DNA of 34,641 bases, from positions 1-34,641 of the forward strand of contig NZ_JAGFVL010000049.1 in NCBI RefSeq assembly GCF_017599345.1, read 5' to 3'. Of this stretch, positions 14,101-34,641 are shown one piece after another. The notes under the pieces were generated by a model, which searched no databases, was not told where the DNA came from, and worked only from the letters and a program-made list of their open reading frames with translations. The position numbers and the translations under genes are program-made. Position 1 is the stretch's first letter. The number at the start of each line of letters is the position of its first letter. The DNA is from Gracilibacillus suaedae (GTDB taxonomy: Bacteria; Bacillota; Bacilli; Bacillales; Amphibacillaceae).

Positions 14101-14865
14101 ATGTCCCAAGTTCAATCAGTAGAACGAACGCTTTCTATTTTAGAAATATTGTCAGCACATCCGGAAGGTTTAAGTATCGCGAATCTTTCCAAGGAATTAT
14201 CACTAGCAAAAAGCACCGTACATCGTCTGTTAAGCACATTAATGACAAACGGCTATGTACAACAAGACGAACAGACAGGTCATTATCGACTTGGTATTCA
14301 ATGTCTTGTTTTAGCGAGTTCCTTGTTGAATCAATTGGATATCCGAAAAGTTGCGAAAGAAGCATTACACAATCTAGCAAAAAGCTCAGGTGAAGTAGTG
14401 CACTTATGTATCCATGATAATAATGAAGTCGTTTACATTGACAAAGTGGAAAGTGATCAAACATTAAGAATGTATTCTCAAATTGGAAGAAGAGCTTTAA
14501 TGCATTGTACAGGGGTAGGAAAAGCGTTGCTCTCAGGCTTCACACAAGAGCAATTAGATCATTTAATTGCAGAAAAAGGACTGCCGAAATTCACAGAGAC
14601 CACGATTACCGATAAAGCCAATCTGCAAAAAGAATTAAGGGAAATTCAAGATAGAGGATATGCAATCGATGAACAGGAGCACGAAAAAGGTATTCGCTGT
14701 ATTGCAGCTCCGATTTATGATCATGATGGTAACGTCGTTGCTGCTATCAGTATTGCAGGACCTGCTGATCGAGTGACAAAAGAAAGGGTTAAAGAGGATT
14801 TAGCACAAGCTATTTTAACGCAAAGTAAACAGATATCCGCAAAATTAGGTTATATCAAAAACTAG
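14101..14865 (+). CDS. IclR-family transcriptional regulator of galactonate genes (KdgR-like)
   Basis: A 254-residue regulator. Residues about 4-60 form the winged helix-turn-helix (R-T-L-S-I-L-E-I-L..L-S-I-A-N-L-S-K-E-L-S-L-A-K-S-T-V-H-R-L-L), then the G-H-Y-R-L-G hinge, and residues about 75-250 the IclR ligand domain (R-R-A-L-M-H-C-T-G-V-G-K-A-L-L, G-Y-A-I-D-E-Q-E-H-E-K-G-I-R-C-I-A-A-P-I). The start is ATG 14101 with AAGGAG eight bases upstream; an in-frame ATG at 14071 lies inside the operator and is rejected. It is the first gene of the operon, 19 bases before the dehydratase. By context the ligand is 2-keto-3-deoxygalactonate/gluconate or galactonate; this is inference. Confidence 0.88.
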   Translation: MSQVQSVERTLSILEILSAHPEGLSIANLSKELSLAKSTVHRLLSTLMTNGYVQQDEQTGHYRLGIQCLVLASSLLNQLDIRKVAKEALHNLAKSSGEVVHLCIHDNNEVVYIDKVESDQTLRMYSQIGRRALMHCTGVGKALLSGFTQEQLDHLIAEKGLPKFTETTITDKANLQKELREIQDRGYAIDEQEHEKGIRCIAAPIYDHDGNVVAAISIAGPADRVTKERVKEDLAQAILTQSKQISAKLGYIKN

Positions 14866-14884
14866 GTGAAAGGAGTGTTGGAAA

Positions 14885-16033
14885 GTGAAAATTACCAACA
14901 TCGAAACATTTGTTGTAGCACCAAGATGGTGTTTTGTCAAAGTGGAAACAGATGAAAGTATTGCAGGATGGGGAGAGCCTGTAGTAGAGGGGAAGGCAGC
15001 AACAGTAGAAGCAGCAGTACATGAACTGGCTGACTTTCTAATAGGAAAGGATCCTTTAAAAATAGAGGACCACTGGAATGTCATGTATCGTGCTGGCTTT
15101 TACCGCGGTGGGCCGATTTTAATGAGTGCTATTGCTGGTCTTGATCAAGCATTATGGGATATTAAAGGGAAATACTTTAATGCTCCAGCTTATCAATTGC
15201 TAGGTGGGGCATGTCGTGACTTGATCCGTGTTTATTCCTGGATTGGTGGTGACAGGCCAAGTGATGTGGGAGCTGCGGCCAAAAACGTAGTGGAAGCAGG
15301 TTTTACTGCAGTAAAAATGAATGGAACAGAAGAACTGCAATATGTTGACAGTTATGAAAAAATTGATAGCGTTATCGAAAGGATTGCATCTGTACGTGAA
15401 GCTGTCGGTGATTATATCGGTATCGGTATTGACTTTCATGGCAGGGTGCACAAACCAATGGCTAAAATACTGGCAAAAGAACTGGAGCCATTCCGCCCGA
15501 TGTTTATTGAAGAACCAGTTTTACCAGAAAATAATGAAGCATTAGCGGAAATAACGAAACATACCTGCATTCCGATTGCGACTGGTGAGAGAATGTATTC
15601 TCGTTGGGATTTCAAGCCATTATTTGAATCCGGTTTAGCGGATATTATCCAGCCGGACTTATCTCATGCAGGCGGGATTACTGAAGTGAAAAAGATTGCT
15701 TCGATGGCAGAAGCATATGATATCGCTGTTGCGCCACATTGTCCATTAGGTCCGATTGCTTTAGCAGCTTGTTTACAAATGGATGCAACCGCTCACAATG
15801 CATTCATCCAAGAGCAAAGTCTAGGTATTCATTATAACCAAGGGAATGATTTATTAGATTATATAACAGACAAAACCGTATTTGATTACCGAGATGGACA
15901 TGTCAAAATTCCTCAAGGACCAGGTCTTGGTATTGAAATCAATGAAGAGAAAGTAAAGGAAATGGCAAAAGAAAGACACAGATGGCGAAATCCTGTTTGG
16001 CGTCATCAAGATGGAACCGTTGCGGAATGGTAA
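14885..16033 (+). CDS. dgoD: D-galactonate dehydratase
   Basis: A 382-residue enolase-superfamily enzyme, exactly the length of E. coli DgoD, converting D-galactonate to 2-keto-3-deoxygalactonate. The family residues fall at the same numbers as in DgoD: metal ligands Asp183 (G-I-D-F-H-G-R), Glu209 (F-I-E-E-P) and Glu235 (A-T-G-E-R), and catalytic His185 and His285 (A-P-H-C-P-L-G-P-I). The segment [14 protein letters not shown] is nearly identical to the E. coli enzyme. The start is GTG with AAAGGAG nine bases before. The kinase starts 12 bases after its stop. Other acid sugar dehydratases in the superfamily lack this match, so the call is firm. Confidence 0.94.
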
Positions 16034-22215: not shown

Positions 22216-22330
22216 TTGTCATCATCCTTTCTAACTTAAAAAATATTAAAATAGAACCATTCACAAAATACATACACTACGAACCAATAAGCATGGATTT
22301 ACTCTCCTCCATTCTGATTCTAGTCGAGTG

Positions 22331-22526
22331 CTAAGCCACCGCTGCGGAAAAAATACTCGCTTTCCGTGGGGAACGCTTCAGCCAGGGAGCTTCTTGATTA
22401 AACATCTTTGTCCCCTTGCACCGAGGAAGCCTACTTCGAAGCTTTACTAGGAGACGCAGGTGCATCACGCAGGGTCTTCAGACTGTTCCTTTCCCACAGG
22501 AGTCTCGCATTTTTTCTGCAGCTTAG
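22331..22526 (-). repeat. Palindromic repeat element R1 (between galE and galK)
   Basis: Read on the minus strand: CTAAGC at one end, GCTTAG at the other, arms with AGAAAAAATGCG against CGAGTATTTTTTCCGC, the boxes GACTCCTGTGGGAA, GAAGACCC, GGCTGAAG and CCCCACGGAAAG, and a longer internal stem bounded by TGCACC/GGTGCA. Same architecture as R2-R4 but a larger centre. It has no gene. The stretch 22216-22330 beside it holds only the galE leader. Confidence 0.8.
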
Positions 22527-22610
22527 AATAGTGTTCTAATAAAATGACAGGAAATCCAAAGGAAATCGTTCCCTAAGTTCTATTCTTACCATAATTGGAA
22601 AACTAAATTT

Positions 22611-22741
22611 AGCGTAGGCAGAATACGGAGACTCCTGTGGGAACAGCGCGAGCCGAAGATCCACTTGGTAAAGTGCTTTTCTTTACCAAGTTAGCTGAGG
22701 CCGTGCCCACGGAAAGCGCAGTATTCTGCCGGAGCGGTATT
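22611..22741 (+). repeat. Palindromic repeat element R2
   Basis: Outer stem GGCAGAATAC (22617-22626)/GTATTCTGCC (22721-22730), perfect. Boxes CTCCTGTGGGAA and CCCACGGAAAG pair with one bulged T. Inner hairpin ACTTGGTAAAG (22663-22673)/CTTTACCAAGT (22681-22691), perfect. It is nearly identical to R3 in the opposite direction. Weaker similarity extends into the flanks on both sides (for example AGTTCTAT-CTT before it and CTATGG..ATGGA after it), so the mobile or duplicated unit is larger than the palindrome. Confidence 0.85.
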
Positions 22742-22844
22742 CCAACACTTCCTATGGAAAGAATGGAGGAAAGCCTCCCTCCGGAAATTTTCATTAGTTC
22801 GCAGTATCTATCAACTACGAACCAGTATGAGCGGCAGTTTATGC

Positions 22845-24023
22845 CTAAAGTGATATCTCCTTAGCACCATCTCCGACTGCGGCTACGTAAAAGGTTGGAG
22901 CGTAACCCACTTTGTCTTGATAGGATTTGTCAATGGCTTGTTTGACAGCTTCAACCATTGTCTTTTCTACGATAGCAATCGCGCACCCGCCAAATCCAGC
23001 GCCTGTCATCCGGGCGCCTAGGACACCTTTTTGTTGCCAGGCAGTTTCGGCAATGGTATCAAGCTCCACGCCTGTTACTTCATAATCATCGCGTAATGAT
23101 ACATGAGATTGGTTCACTAATTCACCAAATTCCTTGAGGTCACCAGCATTTAACTTTTTCAAAGCATCGATCGTTCTAGCATTTTCATATACAGCATGTT
23201 TTGCCCGTTTTTGATTTGTTTGATCAGTAATTAATGAACGGTTTTCCTCGAATTGTTCTGGTGTCAATTCACCAAGGCTGTTAATAGAAAGTTCTTTTTG
23301 CAGGTCCGCTAGCGCTACTTCACATTGATTGCGACGTTCATTATACTTGGAATCAGCGAGTTCACGTCGTTTATTCGTATTAATAATAATGATATCATGA
23401 TTTTCCAATTTTATTGGTGCATATTGATAGTTTAATGTATCACAGTCTAATAGCATCGCGTGATCTGCTTTCCCCATACCAATTGCAAATTGATCCATAA
23501 TGCCACTGTTGACACCGATATAATCGTTTTCAACTTTTTGTCCAAGTTGGACCATCCGAATACGGTCTATATCAAGTCGGTAAAGATTTTCTAATAAAAC
23601 CCCAGTTACAAGTTCAATGGAAGCAGAGGAAGAGAGACCCGCACCGTTAGGAATATTTCCGTAGAATAATACGTCAAATCCTTTATCAATATTAAACCCT
23701 TCTTCCAGGAAGTAAAGAATCATTCCTTTTGGAAAATTGGTCCAACTGTCTTCGCCTTTGTAGGAAAGGTCATCTAGTGATACTTCAATTATTCCTTTAT
23801 CAGGAAAATTATCCGAATAGAGTCGTAACTTTTTATCCTGTCTTGGTACTGCTAACGCATACGTACCAAAGGAAATTGCAGCAGGGAAGACATGCCCGCC
23901 GTTATAATCTGTGTGTTCCCCGATCAGATTAATTCTACCTGGTGCAAAAAATGCTCTGGGCTGTTCAGTTGTTTGGAACATACCTTGAAACTTGGCAACT
24001 AATGTTTTTATATCCATTTTCAT
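22845..24023 (-). CDS. galK: Galactokinase
   Basis: A 392-residue GHMP-family kinase phosphorylating alpha-D-galactose. It carries the galactokinase signature G-R-I-N-L-I-G-E-H-T-D-Y-N-G-G, the ATP loop P-N-G-A-G-L-S-S-S-A-S, N-S-G-I-M-D-Q-F with the catalytic Asp, and the C-terminal G-A-R-M-T-G-A-G-F-G-G-C. The start is ATG 24023, seven bases after AAAGG; GTG 24029 and ATG 24017 are in-frame alternatives. It has a strong promoter with the shared AT-rich operator just downstream of the -10, and is divergent from the nuclease gene. galE, galT and galM follow on the same strand beyond two repeats. Confidence 0.95.
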   Translation of the reverse strand: MKMDIKTLVAKFQGMFQTTEQPRAFFAPGRINLIGEHTDYNGGHVFPAAISFGTYALAVPRQDKKLRLYSDNFPDKGIIEVSLDDLSYKGEDSWTNFPKGMILYFLEEGFNIDKGFDVLFYGNIPNGAGLSSSASIELVTGVLLENLYRLDIDRIRMVQLGQKVENDYIGVNSGIMDQFAIGMGKADHAMLLDCDTLNYQYAPIKLENHDIIIINTNKRRELADSKYNERRNQCEVALADLQKELSINSLGELTPEQFEENRSLITDQTNQKRAKHAVYENARTIDALKKLNAGDLKEFGELVNQSHVSLRDDYEVTGVELDTIAETAWQQKGVLGARMTGAGFGGCAIAIVEKTMVEAVKQAIDKSYQDKVGYAPTFYVAAVGDGAKEISL

Positions 24024-24050
24024 TATCACCCTTTGAAATATTTTGTCGAC

Positions 24051-24071
24051 TTAATTAAATTAATTTATTAA
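24051..24071. promoter_or_regulatory. AT-rich near-palindromic operator downstream of the galK promoter
   Basis: Bases 24052-24071 are identical to 6533-6552 before ganS; a further T at 24051 completes a 21-base imperfect palindrome. It begins five bases past the -10 hexamer, that is from about +1 into the leader, a repressor-type position. Confidence 0.65.
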
Positions 24072-24075
24072 CTAA

Positions 24076-24104
24076 AGTATACGTGATTTCGTTAATAGAT
24101 ACAA
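24076..24104 (-). promoter_or_regulatory. galK promoter
   Basis: On the minus strand, TTGTAT (24104-24099) and TATACT (24081-24076) are separated by exactly 17 bases. The -10 matches the consensus at 5 of 6 positions, the -35 at 4 of 6. Confidence 0.7.
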
Positions 24105-24121
24105 GGCTAAAATGGAAATAA

Positions 24122-24149
24122 TTGATTGAGGTGAACAGTCACCTATAAT
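24122..24149 (+). promoter_or_regulatory. Promoter of the nuclease gene with palindrome in its spacer
   Basis: TTGATT (24122-24127) and a perfect TATAAT (24144-24149) lie 16 bases apart. The spacer contains AGGTGA-ACAG-TCACCT, a perfect 6-base inverted repeat with 4-base centre (24129-24144), placed where a repressor would exclude RNA polymerase. The start site would leave a leader of about 145 bases. The element AAAATGGAAATA occurs twice around it. Confidence 0.6.
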
Positions 24150-24299
24150 GATGTCACATAAAATGGAAATAAACGGCACTACTCGTTATTTATCTTTACA
24201 AAAGTTAACAAACACTTTACGCAGAGTTTAATTAATTTCAACCTTGAATTGATAGAATCAAAGATGGAAGATAGACAAATTAATAGAGGAGGAGAGAGA

Positions 24300-27200
24300 A
24301 TGGAGCGACATTCAAGGTTAAAAATATCTAGCTTATTTTTGGCATTTTTACTTGTATTTACTCAACTCTCAACAGCATTTATACCTATAGTAGAAGTAAG
24401 TGCACAAGAACAAGAGACGGAGGCTATTTCTGTATCTGATGCATTGGCAGAAGGTCATGATACAGAAGTGACCATGGAAGGGTATATAGTAGCCCCTTTT
24501 AATAATCAGTATGCCATTAAGGTAGCAGAAGAGAATAATGATGAGGCTACGTCTATCATTGTTAAGTTGGAATCAGATCAACGTGATCAATTTAGTCCAC
24601 AGTTAAATGAAGCAGCATTAGGACAAAAAATTACTGTGACAGGTACAAGGGACCTTTATTCCAATCAGGAATCCATTGAAAATGTAACAAGTATTACATT
24701 TGCTGATGGTGATGCAATAGAGGACGAAGACCCGGTTCCGTCTAACCTATCGATTTTAGAAGCACGCCAACAAAGCAATGGAAGTGTCGTAACCATTGAA
24801 GGTGTGGTAACTTCTAGTAATCTAGCAGATCCAAATAGCAGTCAATTATCCACATACATACAAGATGAGACAGCAGGTATTAATCTTTTTGCATTTGAAG
24901 GATCTTCTTTTCCAACATTAAGTGAAGGAGATCGAGTTCAAATAACAGGTGAAATCGATGTTTATAATGGATTAACAGAGATTATACCAACTGACATGGA
25001 AGTGATCGCTAGTGGTGAAACTCTACCAGCTGCAACAGATATTACGTTAGCAGATTTAAATGATGAAGCAGTAGCAGAGTCATTAGAAGGTCAATTAGTT
25101 TCTGTTTCCGGATATATGCAAAATATTCCATCTGATCCTGCTGGTGGAGGCTACAATATTTCGTTAATCGACAGTGACTTTAATAGTACAACGTTAAGAG
25201 TAATGGAAGGAACGTTAGATGTTACGGAGCTAGAAGAGGGTAACTGGTATGAGATTACAGCTGTTTTAAGCCAATACAACAGCTATCAACTATTACCTAG
25301 AAAAGCTAGTGATCTATCATTAGCGGAGGAGCAACTGGACGCGCCAGATGCAAGTGGAGAATATACTTCAACAGTTGAATATGTTTCGGATGGTGACACG
25401 ATTCGGTTAACAACACCTGTGTTAGGATCTGATCGAGTACGTTTTGTTAACATTGATACACCTGAGACAAATGTGAATGGAGCAAATGGTGTAGATGAGG
25501 AAAATCAACAAGAACATGGTCAATATGCAACAGAACGCTTGAAAGAATTATTGCCAGAAGGTTCAACCGTAACATTAAAAATTGGTGAAGAACCGACTGA
25601 TCAATATGGTAGATTGCTAGCGGAAGTCATCAATGAAGATGGCGTAAATACGAACCTGGAATTAGTTAAAGAAGGATTCGCAACAACCTACTTTATCTGG
25701 CCAATTGGTGATGAAGATAATTATCAGCTTTATCAGGATACCGTTAAAGAAGCAATAGATAATGAACAAGGTATTTGGAATCCTGAAAACCTATTAACAG
25801 AGTTACCTTTTGAGTACCGTGCCATTTCAGAAGGTGGAGATTTCCATCGTTATGTAGGAAACTCCGATACGAAAGAATATGTAGAACCTACCGAATATGC
25901 AGAAGTTCCGGTGGAAAAACGTATCTTCTTTGCAAGTGCGGCGGAAGCTGAAGCACAAGGATATACTTCTGCAACAGCAGGTGAAGAACCATCTGATGAC
26001 ATATTGGAAGTACAACTATTAAGCATGAACGACTTGCACGGAAAGATCGACCAGGAATACGTATTAGATGTTGATGGCGAAGATGCAGTGTATGGTCGTA
26101 TGGATTACACGGCACAAGCGATTAAAGAACGAGAACAAGAAAACGAGAATACCTTACTTGTACATGCAGGTGATATGATTGGTGGAAGTTCACCTATTTC
26201 AGGTTTGCTTCAAGATGAGCCAACAGTAGAAATTATGAATGAAATGGGCTTCGATATAGGTACAGTAGGAAACCATGAATTTGATGAAGGATTAGATGAA
26301 TTAAAACGCATGGTAAATGGTGGGGATCATCCAGAAGGACTAGGTACAGAAGGTTACGAAGGGATGAACTTTGATATGCTTTGTGCCAACTGTATTCAAG
26401 AAGATACAGGTGAAACCTATTTACCACCATATGCTATTCAGGAAGTTGACGGTGTAGAAATTGGTTTTATCGGTGTTAATACACAAGAGACAATGAACAT
26501 GGTCATGCCGTCTTCTTTAGAAAATGTAGCATTTACGGATGAAACAGAAGCAGTTAATGATGCAGTTGATGAATTACAGGAACAAGGTGTGGAAGCAATT
26601 GTTGTTCTTGCACACATGCCGGCGACACAATCTGGATCAACTGCTACAGGAGCTGCAGCAGATTTGGCTAAAAATACCGATGATGCAGTAGACATTATTT
26701 TTGCAGCCCATAACCACCAAGTAGTAGATGCCGTTGTTGATGAAAAATGGATTATTCAAGCATCGGAATATGGAAAAGCCTTTGCTGATGTTGATATTCA
26801 AATTGATCGTGAAACAAAAGATATTGTGGATGTAGAATCAGAAGTCGTATTTGTGAAGCAAGATGATTACCAACCTGAACCAGCGGTTGAAAGTATTTTG
26901 AATAAATATGAGGCTGAAATCGAATCTATTGTAAATGAAGAAATCGGTTATAATGCACAGGAACTAACTGGGCAGTATACCAATGATGGTGATCACGGTT
27001 TAGGTAATTTAATTGCAGATGGTATGAAATGGGTAATGGATGCTGATTTTGCGATGCACAATGGTGGTGGTATCCGCGACTCCTTAAACGTAGGTCCAAT
27101 AACTTGGGGTGAAGTGTTTAATATTCTACCTTTTGCTAATAATGTGATGTCAGTGGAAATCAAAGGTGAAGATTTAATTCCTATTCTAAATGACAATTTA

Positions 27201-28928
27201 TCAAGTTACGGATCAGATTATAGTGTGTCCGGTTTACACTACACCTATAATTATGATTATCAGCATGTAGTAGATATTACCTTTCCGGACGGATCGCCAA
27301 TTGATCCAGAGGAAACATATGTATTAGCAACGAACAATTATATTGGTACGCAAGATGGTCCAATTAGTAATTTAGGTAAAAATCCAGTAATGGGTCCAGT
27401 TGATGTTGATGCTGCGGTGGATTATATCAAGTATTTAGATACTTCTGAAGAAAACCCATTAGTAGTTGGACCAGAGGGACGTATTACGCAAACAGACGAG
27501 GTTCCAGACATGGAAGATGAAGGCGAGGCGATCGGCTATAATGCACAGGATTTAGTCGGTAGTTACACAAATGGCATTGATCATGGTTTAGGTAATTTAA
27601 TTACAGATAGTATGAGAGTGGAAATGGACAGTGATTTTGCTGTGACGAATGGTGGAGGAATTGGTTCTTCCTTATTAGCTGGACCGATCACGACATCTTC
27701 GTTAGAAAAAATACTAACCCATGGTAATACATTAGTGAAAATGGAAGTGACAGGTGCTGAATTAGAAGAGATTCTGAATGCACAGCTTTCTGATAACGGT
27801 TCTGATTATAGTGTATCTGGGTTCCAATATCGCTATAATAAGGCAGCAAATAAAGTGATATCTATAACACTTCCAGACGGCAAGAAAGTGAAAAAGAATG
27901 ATACCTATACCTTAACAACAAATAGCTATTTAGCATCAAGAGGTGTATTCGCATCAATCGATTCTGAGCGAGAAGAAGGCCCTGTCGATGTAGAGGCGCT
28001 TGAGAATTACATTATTGCTCTAGAAACAACAGAGGATAATCCATTGTTATATGGTACAGAAGGTCGTATCTCTACTGTACCGAAAGTGACATTGCCAGAT
28101 GTTGTAGATAATAAGGCGAAAGTAAAAGATGTTATTTTTGATCAGGTAGCAGCAAAGGGCAAAGTTACCGTTGACTTTACCGAAGTAGAAAATATTGACG
28201 AGAGCCAACCATTAGAAATTACAGTAACCAAATCGCAATTAGCCAAATTAAAAGAAAAAGATGCAGTTTTAGCTGTGAAAAAAAATGATGTAACACTAGA
28301 ATTTCCAGCAGCAGTGTTTACTGGGGAACAGGATGCTACCATCATCATCGAAAAGCTAGCAGATGTAGAAGGTGCGAAAAGTGCTGTTTATGATTTTACC
28401 CTTGTGGAAGGTGAAACTATAATAAGTGACTTTTCTGAAACAGAAGGTGTTCAATTAGCCTTTAACATCCATGACGAAGATGTGGAATACTCAGACCTTT
28501 TGAAGGTATTTTACCTAAATGAGAAAACAGAGGAATGGGTAGAAATTGGCGGTGAGTATCAAGGCGGTATTGTGACAGCGACAACTACTCACTTCTCGAT
28601 CTTTACTGTAATGGAAGCTAGTGAAGATAATGATAATAATGACGATGATGAGACCAATAACAATGGTGGAAACAATGATGGTGACGAAACTAATAATGAT
28701 GTTGGAAATAATGACGATGGTGAAGCCAATAACAACGATGGAGATTCAAAAGATAATGATAAGAACTCCAATGGATCAGAAGATCAAAAGAAAACAGAGA
28801 ACACATCAACAGAAAATAATGAGCTACCAGATACCGCTACATCCATGTTTAACTACTTGATAGCAGGTGTCGTCATAATCGCATTCGGCTTATTATTGCT
28901 GATTCGCAAAAGAAAACTAAGCTTATAA
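24300..28928 (+). CDS. yhcR: Cell-wall-anchored nuclease / 5'-nucleotidase (YhcR-like, LPDTA)
   Basis: A 1542-residue exported protein with the domain order of B. subtilis YhcR, but longer. Residues 1-35 are a signal peptide ending V-S-A. About 40-340 hold DUF6359/OB-fold-type domains. About 354-495 are a thermonuclease domain with R-F-V-N-I-D-T-P-E-T and D-Q-Y-G-R, the catalytic Arg/Glu/Arg set. About 565-845 are a metallophosphatase (N-D-L-H-G, G-D-M-I-G-G, G-N-H-E-F, A-A-H-N-H). Two 5'-nucleotidase C-terminal domains follow, about 880-1040 and 1078-1235; the second has lost the substrate Arg (N-G-G-G-I-G for N-G-G-G-I-R). An all-beta region, an Asn/Asp-rich linker (about 1441-1505) and the sorting signal L-P-D-T-A (1509-1513), helix and R-K-R-K-L end it. 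The start is ATG 24300, GGAGG seven bases before. It probably degrades external nucleic acid for nucleosides and phosphate. Confidence 0.9.
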   Translation: MERHSRLKISSLFLAFLLVFTQLSTAFIPIVEVSAQEQETEAISVSDALAEGHDTEVTMEGYIVAPFNNQYAIKVAEENNDEATSIIVKLESDQRDQFSPQLNEAALGQKITVTGTRDLYSNQESIENVTSITFADGDAIEDEDPVPSNLSILEARQQSNGSVVTIEGVVTSSNLADPNSSQLSTYIQDETAGINLFAFEGSSFPTLSEGDRVQITGEIDVYNGLTEIIPTDMEVIASGETLPAATDITLADLNDEAVAESLEGQLVSVSGYMQNIPSDPAGGGYNISLIDSDFNSTTLRVMEGTLDVTELEEGNWYEITAVLSQYNSYQLLPRKASDLSLAEEQLDAPDASGEYTSTVEYVSDGDTIRLTTPVLGSDRVRFVNIDTPETNVNGANGVDEENQQEHGQYATERLKELLPEGSTVTLKIGEEPTDQYGRLLAEVINEDGVNTNLELVKEGFATTYFIWPIGDEDNYQLYQDTVKEAIDNEQGIWNPENLLTELPFEYRAISEGGDFHRYVGNSDTKEYVEPTEYAEVPVEKRIFFASAAEAEAQGYTSATAGEEPSDDILEVQLLSMNDLHGKIDQEYVLDVDGEDAVYGRMDYTAQAIKEREQENENTLLVHAGDMIGGSSPISGLLQDEPTVEIMNEMGFDIGTVGNHEFDEGLDELKRMVNGGDHPEGLGTEGYEGMNFDMLCANCIQEDTGETYLPPYAIQEVDGVEIGFIGVNTQETMNMVMPSSLENVAFTDETEAVNDAVDELQEQGVEAIVVLAHMPATQSGSTATGAAADLAKNTDDAVDIIFAAHNHQVVDAVVDEKWIIQASEYGKAFADVDIQIDRETKDIVDVESEVVFVKQDDYQPEPAVESILNKYEAEIESIVNEEIGYNAQELTGQYTNDGDHGLGNLIADGMKWVMDADFAMHNGGGIRDSLNVGPITWGEVFNILPFANNVMSVEIKGEDLIPILNDNLSSYGSDYSVSGLHYTYNYDYQHVVDITFPDGSPIDPEETYVLATNNYIGTQDGPISNLGKNPVMGPVDVDAAVDYIKYLDTSEENPLVVGPEGRITQTDEVPDMEDEGEAIGYNAQDLVGSYTNGIDHGLGNLITDSMRVEMDSDFAVTNGGGIGSSLLAGPITTSSLEKILTHGNTLVKMEVTGAELEEILNAQLSDNGSDYSVSGFQYRYNKAANKVISITLPDGKKVKKNDTYTLTTNSYLASRGVFASIDSEREEGPVDVEALENYIIALETTEDNPLLYGTEGRISTVPKVTLPDVVDNKAKVKDVIFDQVAAKGKVTVDFTEVENIDESQPLEITVTKSQLAKLKEKDAVLAVKKNDVTLEFPAAVFTGEQDATIIIEKLADVEGAKSAVYDFTLVEGETIISDFSETEGVQLAFNIHDEDVEYSDLLKVFYLNEKTEEWVEIGGEYQGGIVTATTTHFSIFTVMEASEDNDNNDDDETNNNGGNNDGDETNNDVGNNDDGEANNNDGDSKDNDKNSNGSEDQKKTENTSTENNELPDTATSMFNYLIAGVVIIAFGLLLLIRKRKLSL

Positions 28929-28930
28929 CG

Positions 28931-28964
28931 AAAAAGGCTACATTCAGCTGAATGTAGCCTTTTT
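28931..28964. terminator. Bidirectional terminator
   Basis: A perfect palindrome from AAAAAGGCTACATTCAG to its complement, ending in TTTTT both ways, between the convergent nuclease gene and metE. It can end transcription from both sides. Confidence 0.92.
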
Positions 28965-29032
28965 TCTTTCATTAATATAGTACGTCTGTTCCTTGGGAGA
29001 GTACAAAACGTCGTAACCCCTCAAGTCTAATT

Positions 29033-31306
29033 TTACTGTTGCTTAATAGTAGTATACTGCTCTCTTATTTTCTTAGCTGCTTCCACCATTTTTTCCAGAG
29101 CGGCGATGGTTTCAGGTTCTCTTCTCGTTTTTAGCCCGCAATCTGGGTTGATCCAGAATTGTTCGACATCAATGGTTTCTAGAGCACGTTTGATGTTTAC
29201 TTCAAGCTCTTGCAAAGTTGGAACACGTGGGCTATGAATGTCATAAACACCAAGCCCGATCTCTTTTTTATAATCATTTTTTTCAAAGGTTTCCACCATT
29301 TCCCCATGACTTCGGGAAGTTTCGATCGAAATCACATCAGCGTCTAATCCATCGATAGCTTCATAAATTTCGCCAAATTCAGAGTAGCACATATGCGTAT
29401 GGATTTGTGTGTCTGGTTTGACCGTCGCCGTTGCAAGCTGAAAAGCATTAACAGCAGCATCAAAATAGGCAGGCCATTTTAAGCGATCCAATGGTAATCC
29501 TTCACGTAACGCAGGTTCATCTACTTGGATGATGTTAATTCCTGCTTCTTCAAGTGCTAATACTTCTTTTTCTAGCGCTAAGGCAATTTGATCTTGTACT
29601 GTGAATCGAGGTAGTTCTTCATGAACAAATGACCAATTTAAGATGGTTACAGGTCCAGTTAACATTCCCTTAACAGGACGATCAGTTAAAGATTGGGCAT
29701 AGGCGATCTCTTTCACGGTGATGGCCTTTTCCCACTCCACATTTCCAACTAATAAAGGTGGTTTAACACAACGTGAGCCATAGGATTGCACCCAACCAAA
29801 TTCGGTAACCGCAAAGCCTTTTAATTTTTCTCCAAAATATTCAACCATATCGGTTCGTTCGAATTCACCGTGAACGAGTACATCTAAATCTAAATCTTCC
29901 TGAATTTGAATCCATCTTCTCGTCTCTGCTTCAATAAAATCCTGGTAGGCTTGGTCAGAGATATCACCTTTACGCCATTTTGTTCTTGTTCTTTTTACTT
30001 CGGGTGTTTGCGGTAAGCTCCCGATTGTTGTTGTCGGTAATAAAGGCAGATTTAATGATGCTTGTTGACGTTTCTTTCTCTCTGTAAAAGGAAGTTCTCG
30101 TTTTGCATTTTGTCTTGCGATAGCAGGTGTTTGATTACGGTAGTCAGATTGATCCAGATTCAATATTGCTTGTTGGCTAGCTTCAAAAGCGTCAGCAACA
30201 GACTGTTTTCCTGCTTGTAAAGCGGTTGTTAAATTTTGCAGTTCTTCTAATTTTTCATTGGCGAAGCTTAATCCGTCTTTGACAACAGGATCTAGCTTTT
30301 CTTCTAAATGTTTCGTTACTGGCACATGTAATAAGGAACAGGATGGTTGTATAATTAATGTTTCTGGGTTTGCTGTTTGTTGGATATGCTGTAAAAGTTG
30401 ATATTTTTCCTCTAAATTAGCACGCCATACATTACGACCATTGATAATACCAGCACCTAAAACTTTATCGGAAGGGAAGCCAAACTTTTGGATCAACTCT
30501 AAATGATCACCATGTACAAAGTCTAATCCAATTCCCTTTACTGGTAGAGCAGTAATTTGTTGATAATGTTGAACCGTCTCAAAATAGGTTTGTAAAATGA
30601 TCTGAATTCCTGATACATTGTTATCGATCGATTGATATACTTGCTCTACAAGATGTATTTCCTTTTCAGAAAGGTTAGTACCCAAAATAGGTTCATCTAT
30701 TTGTACCCACTTAGCTCCTGCTGCTGCTAATTCGTTAAGAACTTGTTCGTATAATGGAAGCAAGCGGTTAATCCAACTTTCTAATTCATCTTCTTGATAT
30801 CCTTTTGCCAGTTTAACAAATGTGACAGGTCCAACAATGACAGGCTTGCCGTCAATGTTCAATTCTTCTTTTGCTTCCTGATAATAATATAATGCCCGGT
30901 TCTCTATTAATTTTGGTGATGTTCCGCTTAGTTCTGGCACTATATAGTGGTAATTGGTATTGAACCATTTTGTCATTTCCGCCGCTACAGCATTTGTTTC
31001 ACCACGAGCAATCGCAAAATAGCTAGACAAGTTTGTTGGGGTATGTTGCTGAAATCGCTCTGGAATAATATTAAAGGAAACAGCTGTATCTAATACATGA
31101 TCATAAAATGAAAAATCCCCCACAGGAATAAGGTCAATTCCTTGCTCTTTTTGCTTTTTTAAGTTGTTAAGTCGTAATTTTTTGGTTTGTGCTTTCAGTG
31201 ATTCTTCACTAATGTCTCCTTGCCAGAATGCTTCGATGGATTTTTTCCATTCTCTTTTTTCTCCTATACGCGGATAACCTAAATTGGCACTAAGAATTGT
31301 TGTCAT
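29033..31306 (-). CDS. metE: Cobalamin-independent methionine synthase
   Basis: A 757-residue 5-methyltetrahydropteroyltriglutamate-homocysteine methyltransferase, the last step of methionine synthesis. The N-terminal half starts [15 protein letters not shown]; the C-terminal half starts near [10 protein letters not shown] and carries the zinc ligands in H-T-H-M-C-Y-S-E-F, the downstream Glu (I-S-I-E-T-S-R-S-H), and N-P-D-C-G-L-K-T-R. Full family length. AAAGGAG lies ten bases before the ATG. It follows the yitJ-like gene by 21 bases, so it shares the upstream SAM riboswitch. Confidence 0.96.
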
Positions 31307-31327
31307 TGTGTAAAAACTCCTTTAAAT

Positions 31328-33166
31328 TTATATTTTTGTTACTAACTTAGCTTGTTGCTGAACATACTTCGTGAGCTCCACTGTTAATGGATAATGCATA
31401 AACGGAGTGATAATATAAATACCATTAAAATAATTCATCGCCGTTTTAATTAACTCCTTGGCAATTTGCATTCCCTCTTGTAAACTGTCCTGGCGGTTAT
31501 CATGGCGCTGCATTCTTGTGCGCACTTCGTCAGATAGTTTCATGCCTGGTACCTCATGATGAAGAAATTCTGCATTTCGATGAGAGGTAAGTGGCATGAT
31601 ACCAATGAAAATAGGTTGATCAATATGTTTAGTAAGTCGATGCAATTGAATAATTTGCTCGTGGTTGAATATCGGCTGTGTCAAAAAGTAGTCCGCACCA
31701 TGCTTTATTTTCCGTTCCATTCTTTTCACTGCTTTTTCGAGATTGGCCACATTTGGATTAAACGCAGCAGCTACCTGAAATTGAGTATTTGTTTTCAAAG
31801 AACTACCAGAAAATGAAAGCCCTTGGTTACACTGTTTGATCAGCTTTGTTAATTCAAAAGATGTGACATCAAAGACAGATGATGCACCCGGAAAACCACC
31901 AATACGAGTCGGATCTCCCGTTATAGCTAGAATTTCATGGAGACCTAATGTATGCAATCCCATTAGGTGGGATTGAAGCCCGATTAAGTTACGATCACGA
32001 CATGTCAAGTGGATGAGCGGTGTTGCGTGACATCCTGCTTGCTTCATTTTTACAGCCATCGCTAGATTACTAATACGTGGAGTAGCCAAGGAATTATCTG
32101 CTAATGTAATTGCATCAACTCCAGCATTCTCCAAAGCAAATACACCATTCATGAAAGAGTCTGTGTCCAAATGTTTTGGTGCGTCTAATTCGACAATAAC
32201 GGTATGTCGTTTTCGAGCCTTATCTGCAATTGTTGTTCGTAGTGGTGGCTGCTGGTCTGTTTTATTTTGGGTAAATGTTACTTGCTTTACTTCTTTTTCT
32301 GTAATAGGTTCTAAGTCTGCTATTCCATCTTTGAGTGCACGAATATGTTCTGGCGTCGTGCCGCAACATCCGCCTATTAACCGGACCCCTTGATCACGGA
32401 AATCCTTCGCACATCGTTCAAAGTAGTGAGTATGCTGGGTGTAAACTAGTTTCCCGTTTTGATAAGCAGGAAGACTTGCATTAGGATATGCTGCCAAAAG
32501 TGCCTTTTCCAGGAGTGGAACTGATTCTAATGCCTTGATCATATAGTGAGGGCCTAAATGACAATTCACTCCTACAACATCTGCACCAATATCTTCTAGT
32601 GTTTGGAGGGCTACGGGAAGCTGGATGCCATTTTCCATCACACCAGGTTCATGCATCGATACATTCGCTATGATAGGCAGATCTGTTTCTTGTCTAGCAA
32701 TCTCTAAGACTTGTTTTATTTCTTCGAAGTCATAGTATGTTTCTAGTAATATCCCATCCACACCTTCTAGTAATAGCGAGAATAGCTGTTCCTTAAAGCT
32801 GCGGATAATATCCTTCTTAGAAGCTACTATTTTTTGCACACCTCTAATTCCACCAATCGTTCCTAACACAAATGCCCGGTCTTCGGCAACGGTCTTGGCG
32901 AGTTGAACCGCTTTGGTATTCAATTGATGTACTTGATCTTCTAAACCAAACCGTGCCAATTTGATATAATTTGCTCCGTATGTGTTGGTTTGAATGATTT
33001 CTGCCCCCGCATCAAGATAGGTTTGATGAACATGAATGATTTCATCGGGATGGGTAGTGTTGTAAGATTCGAAACATCGATCTACACCATGGGAGTATAG
33101 TAAAGTTCCCATTGCTCCATCAGCGACCATTAATCTGTTTTGTAAATGACTAATTAGTTTGGACAT
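31328..33166 (-). CDS. yitJ: Bifunctional homocysteine S-methyltransferase / methylenetetrahydrofolate reductase
   Basis: A 612-residue fusion as in B. subtilis YitJ. The N-terminal homocysteine methyltransferase domain (about 1-290) shows A-D-G-A-M-G-T-L-L, G-V-N-C and G-G-C-C-G-T-T-P-E-H, the three zinc cysteines. The C-terminal MetF-type domain (about 320-605) binds FAD and makes methyltetrahydrofolate (I-V-E-L-D-A-P-K, I-T-G-D-P-T-R-I-G, F-L-T-Q-P-I-F). It feeds methyl groups to MetE, the next gene. The ATG has AGAGAGGTG just before it. An S-box riboswitch and terminator lie in its leader. Confidence 0.94.
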   Translation of the reverse strand: MSKLISHLQNRLMVADGAMGTLLYSHGVDRCFESYNTTHPDEIIHVHQTYLDAGAEIIQTNTYGANYIKLARFGLEDQVHQLNTKAVQLAKTVAEDRAFVLGTIGGIRGVQKIVASKKDIIRSFKEQLFSLLLEGVDGILLETYYDFEEIKQVLEIARQETDLPIIANVSMHEPGVMENGIQLPVALQTLEDIGADVVGVNCHLGPHYMIKALESVPLLEKALLAAYPNASLPAYQNGKLVYTQHTHYFERCAKDFRDQGVRLIGGCCGTTPEHIRALKDGIADLEPITEKEVKQVTFTQNKTDQQPPLRTTIADKARKRHTVIVELDAPKHLDTDSFMNGVFALENAGVDAITLADNSLATPRISNLAMAVKMKQAGCHATPLIHLTCRDRNLIGLQSHLMGLHTLGLHEILAITGDPTRIGGFPGASSVFDVTSFELTKLIKQCNQGLSFSGSSLKTNTQFQVAAAFNPNVANLEKAVKRMERKIKHGADYFLTQPIFNHEQIIQLHRLTKHIDQPIFIGIMPLTSHRNAEFLHHEVPGMKLSDEVRTRMQRHDNRQDSLQEGMQIAKELIKTAMNYFNGIYIITPFMHYPLTVELTKYVQQQAKLVTKI

Positions 33167-33190
33167 AAAATTTCACCTCTCTTCTTTACA

Positions 33191-33227
33191 AAATAAAAAA
33201 TCTCCGGCTATAGAAAGACGGAGATTT
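33191..33227 (-). terminator. Riboswitch-controlled terminator
   Basis: On the minus strand, AAATCTCCG (33227-33219) pairs with CGGAGATTT (33206-33198), followed by a T-rich run (33197-33191). It comes right after the SAM aptamer and 25 bases before the gene, the expression platform of an S-box. Confidence 0.9.
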
Positions 33228-33238
33228 ATTAGAAAAAG

Positions 33239-33345
33239 ACTCTCATCTTTCAAGCACATCATGCTTGCTGGAATTAGCACCTTGTCAATGATTGACGGTT
33301 GCTGAGGTATCGTAGGGCCAGTCCCTCCACCTCTCTGGATAAGAA
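33239..33345 (-). ncRNA. SAM-I (S-box) riboswitch
   Basis: On the minus strand the conserved S-box elements appear in order: CTTATCCAGAGAGGTGGAGG, GACTGGCCC, GATACCTCAGCAACC, AAGGTGCTAATTCC and GAAAGATGAGAG. A terminator follows. By family knowledge, S-adenosylmethionine binding lets the terminator form and shuts off yitJ-metE. Confidence 0.97.
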
Positions 33346-33375
33346 AAAGCTATTTAGTTAGTAACATTTGTTAGT

Positions 33376-33404
33376 AGTTTACAACAACCGCAAACCAATT
33401 TCAA
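33376..33404 (-). promoter_or_regulatory. Candidate promoter of the S-box operon
   Basis: On the minus strand, TTGAAA (33404-33399) and TAAACT (33381-33376) are 17 bases apart, and transcription would start about 25 bases before the aptamer. Confidence 0.5.
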
Positions 33405-33444
33405 GCCCATTTTGAAAATAATGGTATGAAATTGACGGGATAAC

Positions 33445-33472
33445 TTGACTGTTCTTATAATTATGATATGAT
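33445..33472 (+). promoter_or_regulatory. Nitroreductase promoter
   Basis: TTGACT (33445-33450) and TATGAT (33467-33472), 16 bases apart, each one mismatch from the sigma-A consensus. Confidence 0.7.
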
Positions 33473-33482
33473 AAAGTTTAGT

Positions 33483-33497
33483 TGAAAATGATTATCA
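33483..33497. promoter_or_regulatory. Fur box
   Basis: TGAAAATGATTATCA matches the Bacillus 7-1-7 Fur consensus TGATAATNATTATCA at 14 of 15 positions. It sits a few bases after the predicted transcription start, so iron-loaded Fur would repress the gene. Confidence 0.8.
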
Positions 33498-33517
33498 ATA
33501 ACAAGGAGGATATCTCC

Positions 33518-34084
33518 ATGAACCTACAACAACTCATTAAAGAACGTCGCTCGATATCTGTTTATCAAGATAAAGAGGTTTCACAAAGTTTGATCGAAGA
33601 ACTATTAGAAATAGCTATTTGGGTTCCTAATCATAAGATGACAGAACCATGGCGCTTTGTTTTTATTCAAGGAGAGGCTAAAGAAAAACTGGCAAATATT
33701 AACCGGCAAGTAGCAGTCTCCAAAACAACTAGTAATTCAGATGAAGAATTAAAAATAGTAAGCGATAATGCTTATCATAAAATAATGAATGTGCCATTTA
33801 TCTTCTTTGTCGTTAATACCTTACACCCCCAAGAAAAGTTAAGAGAAGAGGATTATGCTTCTTCTAGTTGCTTAATACAGAACTTTAGTTTACTAGCGTG
33901 GGAAAAAGGATTAAGTACTTTTTGGAAAACAGGAAAACTAGCCTTCTGTGAAGAAACAGCAGAATTGATTGGTTTACAAGAGGATGAAAGAGTAGTGGGG
34001 CAAATACAAGTAGGCTATCCAGCCAAAAATCTTCATCCAGTTCCCAGAACATCTGCAAAAGAAAGAATCACCATTATAGAGTAA
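33518..34084 (+). CDS. Nitroreductase-family flavoprotein, Fur-box controlled
   Basis: A 188-residue nitroreductase-fold protein that should bind FMN and reduce a substrate with NAD(P)H. The N-terminal R-R-S-I-S-V-Y matches the FMN-phosphate motif, W-V-P-N-H-K-M-T-E-P-W-R-F-V the next conserved block, and G-Y-P-A-K near the end is typical of the family. The size and the W-V-P-N-H motif resemble B. subtilis YfhC/YdjA-type proteins. The start is ATG 33518 with AAGGAGG eight bases before; the upstream in-frame TTG at 33482 overlaps the Fur box and is rejected. A Fur box at the promoter suggests a job under iron starvation, perhaps reduction of ferric chelates or a flavin; the substrate is not known. 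Confidence 0.87.
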   Translation: MNLQQLIKERRSISVYQDKEVSQSLIEELLEIAIWVPNHKMTEPWRFVFIQGEAKEKLANINRQVAVSKTTSNSDEELKIVSDNAYHKIMNVPFIFFVVNTLHPQEKLREEDYASSSCLIQNFSLLAWEKGLSTFWKTGKLAFCEETAELIGLQEDERVVGQIQVGYPAKNLHPVPRTSAKERITIIE

Positions 34085-34120
34085 AACGCATCGGACGCTT
34101 GAATCCCGATGCGTTTTTTT
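34084..34120 (+). terminator. Terminator after the nitroreductase gene
   Basis: AAACGCATCGG (34084-34094) pairs with CCGATGCGTTT (34106-34116), followed by T to 34120. It begins at the stop codon. Confidence 0.9.
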
Positions 34121-34202
34121 GCTGTAGAACACAGTATCCATAAACTGCGCAGTAACTCTCTTGAGGATCTGCTCTGTCCATCCTCCCATAGAGAGTGCAC
34201 CG

Positions 34203-34334
34203 AATACCGCTTCGGCAGAATACTGCGCTTTCCGTGGGCACGGCCTCAGCTAACTTGGTAAAGAAAAGCACTTTACCAAGTGGATCTTCGGCTCGTGTGA
34301 GTTCCCACAGGAGTCTCCGTATTCTGCCTACGCT
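34203..34334 (-). repeat. Palindromic repeat element R3 (inverted copy of R2)
   Basis: Read on the minus strand it is almost identical to R2, differing at a few bases around AACTCACACGAGCC versus AACAGCGCGAGCC and one G to A near the end. Same outer stem and ACTTGGTAAAG/CTTTACCAAGT inner hairpin. The region after the terminator (34121-34202) holds no gene; it is partly alignable with the R2 flank. Confidence 0.85.
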
Positions 34335-34440
34335 ATTGTTGTGCTCTGGTTATAGAAAGGATAGAACTCATGGAAATACATATGGTGGAGAATTCGATTG
34401 GTTGATTTCGGATTAGTGTTGTAGGGCATATCTTAACGAA

Positions 34441-34566
34441 GGCCGCCCACTTTCACTCCTGTGGGAATTGTTTGACCTGAAGATCCACTTTTTCGAGCGG
34501 TTTTGGCTCGAAAAAGTTAGCTGAAGGACAAACCCCACGGAAAGGGAAGTGGGCAGCCGGAGTGGC
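34441..34566 (+). repeat. Palindromic repeat element R4 (same layout, different stems)
   Basis: Outer stem GCCCACTT (34445-34452)/AAGTGGGC (34547-34554). Boxes ACTCCTGTGGGAA, GAAGATCCACTT, AAGTTAGCTGAAGG and CCCCACGGAAAG are shared with R2. The inner hairpin is ACTTTTTCGAGC (34487-34498)/GCTCGAAAAAGT (34506-34517), perfect but different in sequence from that of R2. Bases 34567-34641 show no gene or site. Confidence 0.85.
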
Positions 34567-34641
34567 AGTTATGATCACGATATATGTCAAAATTACTTCA
34601 TAGGTGACTGTGCATTTAATTTCGAACAAACAGTATTTTCA

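Follow-up and report, generated by a model that had tools for sequence, protein, structure and literature searches.

A 34,641-nucleotide stretch of the Gracilibacillus suaedae genome (contig NZ_JAGFVL010000049.1, here C46 and referred to below as the window) holds four copies, R1 to R4, of a long palindromic repeat which is probably, though by no means certainly, the cargo of a family of non-autonomous cassettes that spread mainly by recombination at resident cassettes. We regard as solid the family itself, its fold and covariation, its class-wide spread, the pairing of its units, the boundaries of the pairs and, in one species pair, the differing cargo at shared slots. New in this analysis are the uniformly divergent pairing of neighbouring units and the framing of most pairs by two different sites of ~28 bp. 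The window copies themselves form two such divergent pairs, R1/R2 and R3/R4, an arrangement absent from the earlier note on this DNA, which had described the repeats from the letters of the window.

The unit is a nested palindrome of ~120-200 nt with constant unpaired boxes and covarying stems. From the outside in, it features AGCGnAG, a variable outer stem, GACTCCT, an NNGGG/CCCNN stem, a third stem, GA-AG-A(T/C)CC, a variable inner stem and AGCTGA, with the return strand running via GGAAAGCG. Each copy contains the box CTCCTGTGGGAA once, and these four are its only exact occurrences in the window; allowing up to two mismatches raises the count to seven, against 1.89 expected and with seven reached in 0/100 shuffles; CCCACGGAAAG is likewise found once in each of R1-R4 as an exact match, and with two mismatches is not above chance in the window (10/100 shuffles). 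A covariance model built as described below places each of the four copies, all of which are present as first reported; R2 is also one of the rows from which the model was made. R2, R3 and R4 fold with z scores of -5.1 to -7.2 on both strands (R2 -5.1; R4 -6.3), with 0/200 shuffles as good, and the inner part of R1 is longer and differs from that of the other three. The inner stems of R2/R3 and R4 differ in both arms, as the earlier note described. R2 and R3 are near-identical (inverted repeats I1 and I2, 99% and 100% over the compared arms), so that the window really holds three independent versions, and covariation was therefore re-tested genome-wide and in relatives.

A BLAST search with R2 returned 66 matches in the genome of origin (G000), and a search by box pattern 103 units, 54 of them non-redundant. 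Thirty-five were aligned (alignment A1); the remaining 19 were set aside, being three chance matches, near-duplicates, units that carry deletions or units whose inner part is long, such as R1. A1 features changes on both sides in 25 of 38 base pairs and 91.1% of cells paired; none of 500 shuffles, which ignore relatedness, reaches any of five measures, and slid structures, a partial control for relatedness, leave 34-43% of cells paired. The covariance model, of 139 positions, was built on A1 and then run on relatives, where 66 units from 45 of the 48 loci L110-L157 (L112, which is from the own genome, L115 and L116 being left out) form a second alignment, A2. Here both-side changes are found in 37/38 pairs and 93.7% of cells are paired, a share that drops to 33-44% once the partners are shifted by 1-3 columns. 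A2, unlike A1, was fitted to the model and is biased in its favour. Covariation is therefore genuine and extends beyond a few recent duplications. The further step proposed at the outset, that it implies selection on a fold, is likely but unproved, since template switching or whole-stem exchange could also change both arms.

Nevertheless the fold itself is probably under constraint, as RNA or as single-stranded DNA, given internal loops that keep their sequence and stay unpaired as the stems around them vary. Counts of G.U versus A.C cells do not tell the two molecules apart: the difference is not significant in A1 (49 vs 38, p 0.28) and significant in the model-fitted A2 (59 vs 33) and A3 (117 vs 68), both of which lean to standard pairs. 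A kink turn reading of GCC-GAA-GA / GA-GGC was dropped on account of the folds and of a G-C to A-U change at columns 58/100 (1/35 rows); a tandem G.A loop beside an AG/CU helix fits better.

In the examined parts of the G. suaedae genome, 94 of 113 model matches were retained as unit positions, 19 weaker or cut-off matches being left out and some contig-end units being counted twice: the R4-type unit at the ends of C44, C46 and C52 and of C25, C49 and C58 probably represents three physical copies, each counted twice. Contigs C44, C46, C52, C18, C19, C35, C50, C58 and C61 end or start within cassettes, probably because near-identical copies broke the assembly, and end copies may be missed or double-counted. 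All 38 neighbouring pairs of units less than 400 bases apart among the 94 positions are divergent (<- ->), with 0 convergent and 0 tandem. The box-pattern catalogue, in which 85 units give 35 typed pairs, shows that 32/35 combine two different outer-stem types and that 26/35 are enclosed, along with subterminal sequence, by two recognised ends, each of ~28 bp and of different types. In loci of relatives divergent pairs are found in 19/45, and one locus (L117) carries three units in a single direction.

The end motif TTACTKCGCAGTWTRTRK has 122 matches versus 3 with the reversed pattern, and ends pair convergently: 40/42 own end pairs span 175-597 bp, the remaining two (743 and 756) being doubtful. 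Neighbouring end pairs more than 100 bp apart fall at 100-599 bp in 46/49 cases, a count in which overlapping loci may duplicate a pair; the other three, at >4.6 kb, were taken as unrelated neighbours, and no autonomous longer cassette was found in the examined sequence. Of 40 distinct end pairs, 26 enclose two units by box pattern and 3 enclose one. A type-1 end reads TTACTGCGCAGT-TTATGGAT followed by TTTGTGC outside, and a type-2 end TTACTTCGCAGT-ATRTATCT followed by ACTGTGAATTA outside, according to logos of 34 type-1 and 45 type-2 distinct ends out of 114 (the remainder being unsortable) in which inner positions are partly set by the search pattern. Conservation extends ~8-10 bases into the host flank and then stops, and the outer arms, set off by a spacer of 6-8 bp, repeat the inner ones in inverted and degenerate form. 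As short elements with terminal inverted repeats, the cassettes have the form of miniature inverted-repeat transposable elements (MITEs). Their longest open reading frame (ORF) measures 16-146 aa per end pair, a little more than the 22-91 aa in one shuffle each.

Cassettes occupy a particular position relative to genes, taken here as ORFs of at least 90 aa. Only 1/42 end pairs lies inside such an ORF, and the family thus shares with repetitive extragenic palindromic (REP) sequences the possession of many intergenic copies. The type-1 end faces a gene 3' end in 31/35 cases (binomial p 3.5e-6) and the type-2 end a gene 5' end in 23/34, the two samples being drawn from the 42 end pairs, two of which overlap others. 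Terminator-like hairpins reading towards the cassette from within 140 bases are seen at 23/35 type-1 and 4/35 type-2 ends, compared with 9/35 and 5/35 for hairpins reading away from it and with 1/35 in shuffled type-1 flanks. The R3/R4 pair of the window (composite 2) obeys this rule by eye, its type-1 end following the terminator of a nitroreductase gene; it stands outside the 35 counted because its type-2 site would fall past the contig end.

Cargo turnover was assessed against G. lacisalsi (G007), in whose examined sequence both flanks could be found for 10 of the 42 own end pairs. Every one of these 10 slots is filled, with no empty orthologous slot among them, and identity between the two species falls from 87% in the outer flank through 84% in the outer arm and 79% in the spacer and inner arm (19/20 ends usable) to 51-53% in the first 40 cargo bases. 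At 9/10 slots the cargo finds a better match among the 41 remaining own cassettes than at the corresponding G. lacisalsi slot, the exception being a slot on C30 with a higher same-slot score (684 vs 661 bits), which suggests that cargo is replaced at fixed slots. For one species pair it is shown that slots are conserved while their cargo differs and resembles that of other slots in the same genome. Further genomes of the genus extend the picture for individual slots. At the R1/R2 slot, G013 and G010 carry different units, G. lacisalsi, where the type-1 site is also present, has unrelated repeat-rich cargo, and G009 and G002 have nothing. A filled R3/R4 slot is seen in G007, G013, G010 and G009, with no unit in the piece of G002 examined. 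One of two C19 slots is occupied in both G007 and G013, whereas the second is occupied in G007 and shows an end remnant in G013; no unit was seen at the C19 slots in G010, G012 or G002. In distant relatives without a cassette, the flanks are too divergent for the junction to be read. In G. lacisalsi, a stretch of locus L105 (11840-12170) and locus L201 are slots with unrelated cargo made of short TTCCGAGGAAA / CCCCGGAAG repeats, and the own C19 locus L070 carries inserts of 112 and 135 bp (1413-1524 and 14811-14945), absent from G. lacisalsi, at whose junctions the aligned pieces overlap by 5 bp and which look like insertions of another repeat family with target duplication.

We propose a model where spread would take place mainly at or between the boundaries of resident cassettes, and less by new insertion, along either of two routes: site-specific exchange by host XerC/XerD-type recombinases acting on dif-like sites, or homologous gene conversion between cassette copies. 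The first route would draw on the boundary consensus, which matches the genus dif at 19/28 positions for type 2 (reached in 2/20000 shuffles) and 16/28 for type 1 (39/20000), figures that are optimistic because dif was picked for comparison after the logo had been seen. The genus dif was found once in each of three genomes, and two integrase-family genes of 299 and 302 aa are, from their size and neighbours, presumably the host xerD and xerC. At its boldest, this reading would be one of chromosomal cassette exchange, with dozens of fixed intergenic slots each bearing two different, inverse dif-like sites between which XerC/XerD swap pairs of folded units, the fold being the single-stranded form recognised and some units having been recruited as small RNAs (sRNAs) such as tsr24 of staphylococci; taken as a whole, we consider this unlikely. 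A linked tyrosine recombinase was rejected as a candidate, since no recognised end lies near the own integrase-family genes (PF00589), and one end-like match with three mismatches near an integrase-family gene in L166 was judged to be due to chance.

The main rival is gene conversion alone, whereby old MITE insertions, dispersed copies with ends and subterminal sequence in common, have their interiors swapped and homogenised by RecA-dependent conversion with no site-specific enzyme at work now, and we hold it to be a serious contender, somewhat short of probable. It would account for the higher scores of cargo with paralogues of the same genome at 9/10 slots, for the break in identity just inside the shared terminal sequence, and for the near-identical R3/R4 interiors at the contig ends of C44, C46 and C52, whose left flanks differ. 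It fits less well with the R1/R2 slot of G. lacisalsi, whose cargo scores 0 bits against R1/R2 and where little is shared beyond the two sites, which is short for homologous recombination, and it does not account for the degenerate likeness of the outer arms, which lie in host DNA, to the inner ones. Shared slots with differing contents are in this respect a natural assay of palindrome spread, the breakpoints of which can separate site-specific exchange, gene conversion and structure-replacing transposition.

Several observations weigh against recombination at resident cassettes as the main mode of spread, or against the generality of the cassette description. By box pattern, 11/40 end pairs are without a unit and 9/35 unit pairs are without one or both recognised ends, four of these nine containing a type-D unit and having flanks that end in other sequences. 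Only 10/42 end pairs could be compared with G. lacisalsi, one site is unrecognisable there at 2/10 slots (C20 right and C19_8929 right), and when cargo is compared with the 9 other G. lacisalsi slots only, the same slot is better in 4/10 cases and worse in 6/10, which would mean that part of the cargo is inherited at its slot. Within a cassette the two spacers are not alike, which does not suit simple circle integration via one att site, and none of the 7 PF00589 genes of the own genome has a recognised end within about 1.5 kb. The gene context was read from ORFs and not from annotation, and the R1/R2 pair (composite 1) breaks the orientation rule, its type-1 and type-2 ends facing gene 5' and 3' ends, respectively. 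Finally, R1 folds weakly (z -1.37, with 14/200 shuffles folding equally, one strand tested).

The family extends well beyond the genus. At an E value of 1e-4, model matches are found in at least 139/146 genomes of the family (44/46 genera), at 1e-6 in at least 64/299 genomes of the class (24/118 genera), and in the phylum in at least 2/299, namely the own genome and one of the same order. These three scans used stricter filters and scored no more than 22 or 10 candidates per genome, and all genome counts are lower bounds; they agree with the earlier remark that similar repeats occur in many Bacillaceae. Among 80 named loci around relatives of the window nitroreductase, 7 have a unit match (2/6 in Gracilibacillus, and others in Alkalicoccobacillus, Aquibacillus, Salibacterium, Cytobacillus and Litchfieldia), with no match at the Flavobacterium and Alicyclobacillus loci. 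Plasmids carry the unit as well, with R2 matching one plasmid record and the unit of L157 matching 14; no phage record matched the latter, R2 not having been tried on phages. Five of the plasmid matches are equal in score, and in the two examined the unit has genes of a zwf-gnd cluster on either side and is outside any insertion sequence (IS). We note that L158 and L159, from plasmids of B. subtilis and Paenibacillus urinalis, have a similar intergenic unit between gnd and a hypothetical gene, that the cluster there is zwf-gnd-glucose-6-phosphate isomerase, and that Tn3-family genes adjoin it in L159.

No name for the family was found in Rfam or in the literature searched by sequence string and by words, the sequences of the stem-loop families Bhal-1, Bhal-2 and Bant-1 being uncompared; these are families of B. 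halodurans and B. anthracis (PMC2267715). A unit present in the great majority of family genomes and in at least 24 class genera thus has no name that we could trace and is yet kin to part of a curated Rfam sRNA. The R2 stretch 22583-22733 matches Rfam RF02577 (tsr24) with 34.2 bits (E 6.7e-6), aligning with model positions 95-213 of 238 with the structure retained, and the unit of L148 matches over the whole model, positions 1-238. Matches to tsr24 coincide with the unit in 6/10 loci of one set (L142, L143, L144, L147, L148 and L151; E up to 0.011), and are found in 4/7 of another (L110, L141, L144 and L148; E up to 0.027). Every match is below the gathering score of 50 bits, the best relative reaching 44.8, and we conclude from the sequence alignments that the unit is related to part of tsr24, without membership by the curated score. 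In S. aureus, 39 sRNAs are reported under the names tsr1 to tsr39 (PMC7392542). A role of the unit as transcribed RNA is suggested by the resemblance to tsr24 only.

The kinship with tsr24 lends itself to another explanation, in which the unit would be a functional RNA gene or leader, as in S. aureus, and its mobility secondary. Besides R2 itself, the relatives with up to 44.8 bits and the whole-model match in L148 speak for it. All of these matches stay under the gathering cut-off, however, and good folding of R2, R3 and R4 is not confined to one strand. A mobile element is favoured by the copy number, by the heterotypic pairs, by the turnover of cargo and by the lack of a match in 7/146 family genomes, and we find a primary RNA function improbable. 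The kinship does raise the question of whether tsr24 descended from a mobile repeat, and the 139-position model gives annotators a means of finding the family.

Two further alternatives appear to us rather less probable still. In the first, the cassettes would be MITEs moved in trans by a DDE transposase, perhaps a palindrome-replacing one like IS1272, with a resident cassette as the preferred target. Their terminal inverted repeats, palindromic cargo, cargo replacement in place and lack of visible target duplication would all be in keeping with such a transposase, as would the ends GAGCTGGGACAGAATTA and GAGACTGGGACAGAAGTAA of an element in the genus genome G005, described below, and replacement of target inverted repeats with no duplication has been reported for IS1272 (PMC5678879). 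PF13751, the domain of IS1182-type transposases, has 0 matches in G000, G007 and G013 and a fragment in G005, no other model of the group and no other DDE family having been searched, and an IS1182-type enzyme was rejected on its absence from 3/4 genomes. The second alternative dispenses with selection on the fold: template switching in palindromes would copy one arm onto the other and so produce perfect stems. Whole inner stems do differ as blocks between subfamilies in A1, where doubly changed cells (178) exceed G.U cells (49). Such correction should erase internal loops too, yet the loops GACTCCT/GGAAAG and GAAGA(T/C)CC/AGCTGA stay unpaired and nearly constant and persist in relatives across the class, some of which carry GGTGAGA/CTCACC in place of the usual ones; single-pair compensated changes, as from TAAAG/CTTTA to TGAAG/CTTCA, are also seen in A1.

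Least probable of all, and in our view very doubtful, is a REP-like element, or one like a bacterial interspersed mosaic element (BIME), mobilised by a Y1 (HUH) transposase through recognition of the folded single strand, in the manner of REP-associated tyrosine transposases (RAYTs) on REPs or of TnpA on IS200/IS605 ends. The intergenic divergent hairpin pairs are indeed BIME-like, and the RAYT link raised in the earlier note found support in G005 and none in the own genome. In G005, Y1_Tnp matches lie at 12 places, of which 8 are flanked by units on both sides, 3 on one side and 1 on neither (loci L238 and L239 repeat L215 and L223), and alignment of the copies reveals an element of ~1 kb bounded by terminal inverted repeats. 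The own genome has a single truncated Y1_Tnp match with no unit within about 1.5 kb, and at E 0.001 no match is found in 5/17 genomes of the genus (G002, G007, G008, G013 and G014, one of them only 73% complete), even though G007 and G013 hold at least 22 units each and the comparison of G007 with G000 already suggests cassette replacement in a lineage without Y1. A RAYT/IS200 mobiliser was for these reasons rejected in the own genome, G005 keeping it as a rival. The Y1 core of G005 is 74% like copies in G009 and G015 (L243 and L247) that have no units beside them and may therefore be a passenger, and among 27 loci around Y1 and integrase genes, 4 have units, 2 of these flanking a Y1 gene. Of separate note, L215, L223 and L228-L236 of G005 represent ~11 copies whose terminal repeats are of GAGCTGGGACAGAA type and which carry divergent units together with an IS200-like Y1 gene that is degraded, and some copies of the ~1 kb element retain only one unit. 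In the own genome, L021, L027 and L034 feature solitary type-E units whose outer flanks carry a TTTGTCCCAGCCTC-like motif resembling the ends of the G005 element.

The coordinates of the units, boundary sites and terminator of the window are as follows.

Table 1. Repeat units and associated features of the window (C46).
Feature	Position	Strand	Basis or sequence
R1 unit, type-C outer stem, long inner part	22333-22529	-	cmsearch 66.6 bits, E 1.7e-13
R2 unit, type-A outer stem	22605-22743	+	cmsearch 156 bits, E 1.3e-35
R3 unit, type-A outer stem	34201-34340	-	cmsearch 147.7 bits, E 1.5e-33
R4 unit, type-B outer stem	34429-34571	+	cmsearch 127.6 bits, E 1.4e-28
Type-1 boundary site, composite 1	22260..22287	-	outer arm TTCACAAA, spacer, inner arm ACTACGAACCAA
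Type-2 boundary site, composite 1	22794..22821	+	TTAGTTCGCAGTATCTATCAACTACGAA
Type-1 boundary site, composite 2	34128..34155	-	AACACAGTATCCATAAACTGCGCAGTAA
Terminator-like hairpin and T run behind nitroreductase gene, just upstream of composite 2	34083..34120	+	direct reading

Other features of the window were recorded alongside. At curated Rfam thresholds its only match is a SAM riboswitch (RF00162, 33240-33345, minus strand, 105.4 bits), located upstream of two minus-strand genes (31328-33166 and 29033-31306) with domains of homocysteine methyltransferase/methylenetetrahydrofolate reductase (MTHFR) and methionine synthase. A 1559-aa ORF (24249-28928, plus strand) has SNase, 5'-nucleotidase, calcineurin-like phosphoesterase, OB-fold and LPXTG anchor domains and includes a repeat of 18-nt period near 28614-28742. 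The nearest named relative of the nitroreductase is that of G. lacisalsi DSM 19029 (94% over 200 aa).

Compared with known systems, the cassettes share with bacterial MITEs such as bcr1, RUP, ERIC and EFAR their short length, inverted ends and intergenic location (PMC3733652), and differ from them in having two end types, a strong terminator bias, heterotypic divergent structured units and conserved slots with differing content, target duplication not being established for them. The replacement of a resident palindrome without target duplication, reported for IS1272 of the IS1182 family (PMC5678879), would be a parallel to cargo turnover, although here the replacement event itself is unseen, and a PF13751 match is missing in three of the four genomes and fragmentary in the fourth. 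Like REPs and BIMEs, the units are intergenic palindromes present in many copies and inverted pairs, and the Y1 gene of G005 between two inverted units recalls the TIRtrons (TIRYT; PMC3733652). REPs, however, measure 20-40 bp (PMC3733652) versus ~120-200 nt and several internal boxes for the units, and the system described here differs from REP/RAYT in its defined boundary sites, in the differing cargo at shared slots and in the lack of a Y1 match in several unit-rich genomes. Over model positions 95-213 the unit of R2 aligns with the boxes and nested stem of tsr24, in the same order and on the same strand, whereas the 5' part of tsr24 is unmatched in the window, scores fall below the gathering cut-off, and a described sRNA stands against a high-copy paired repeat. 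A last comparison is with pdif modules, segments between two inversely placed dif-like sites that need no recombinase of their own. The cassettes are unlike them in being chromosomal, in occupying dozens of slots and in having what appears to be non-protein cargo, with a partial likeness to dif and a putative action of XerCD; the resemblance would lie in a frame of two inverse dif-like sites with the strong arm inside.

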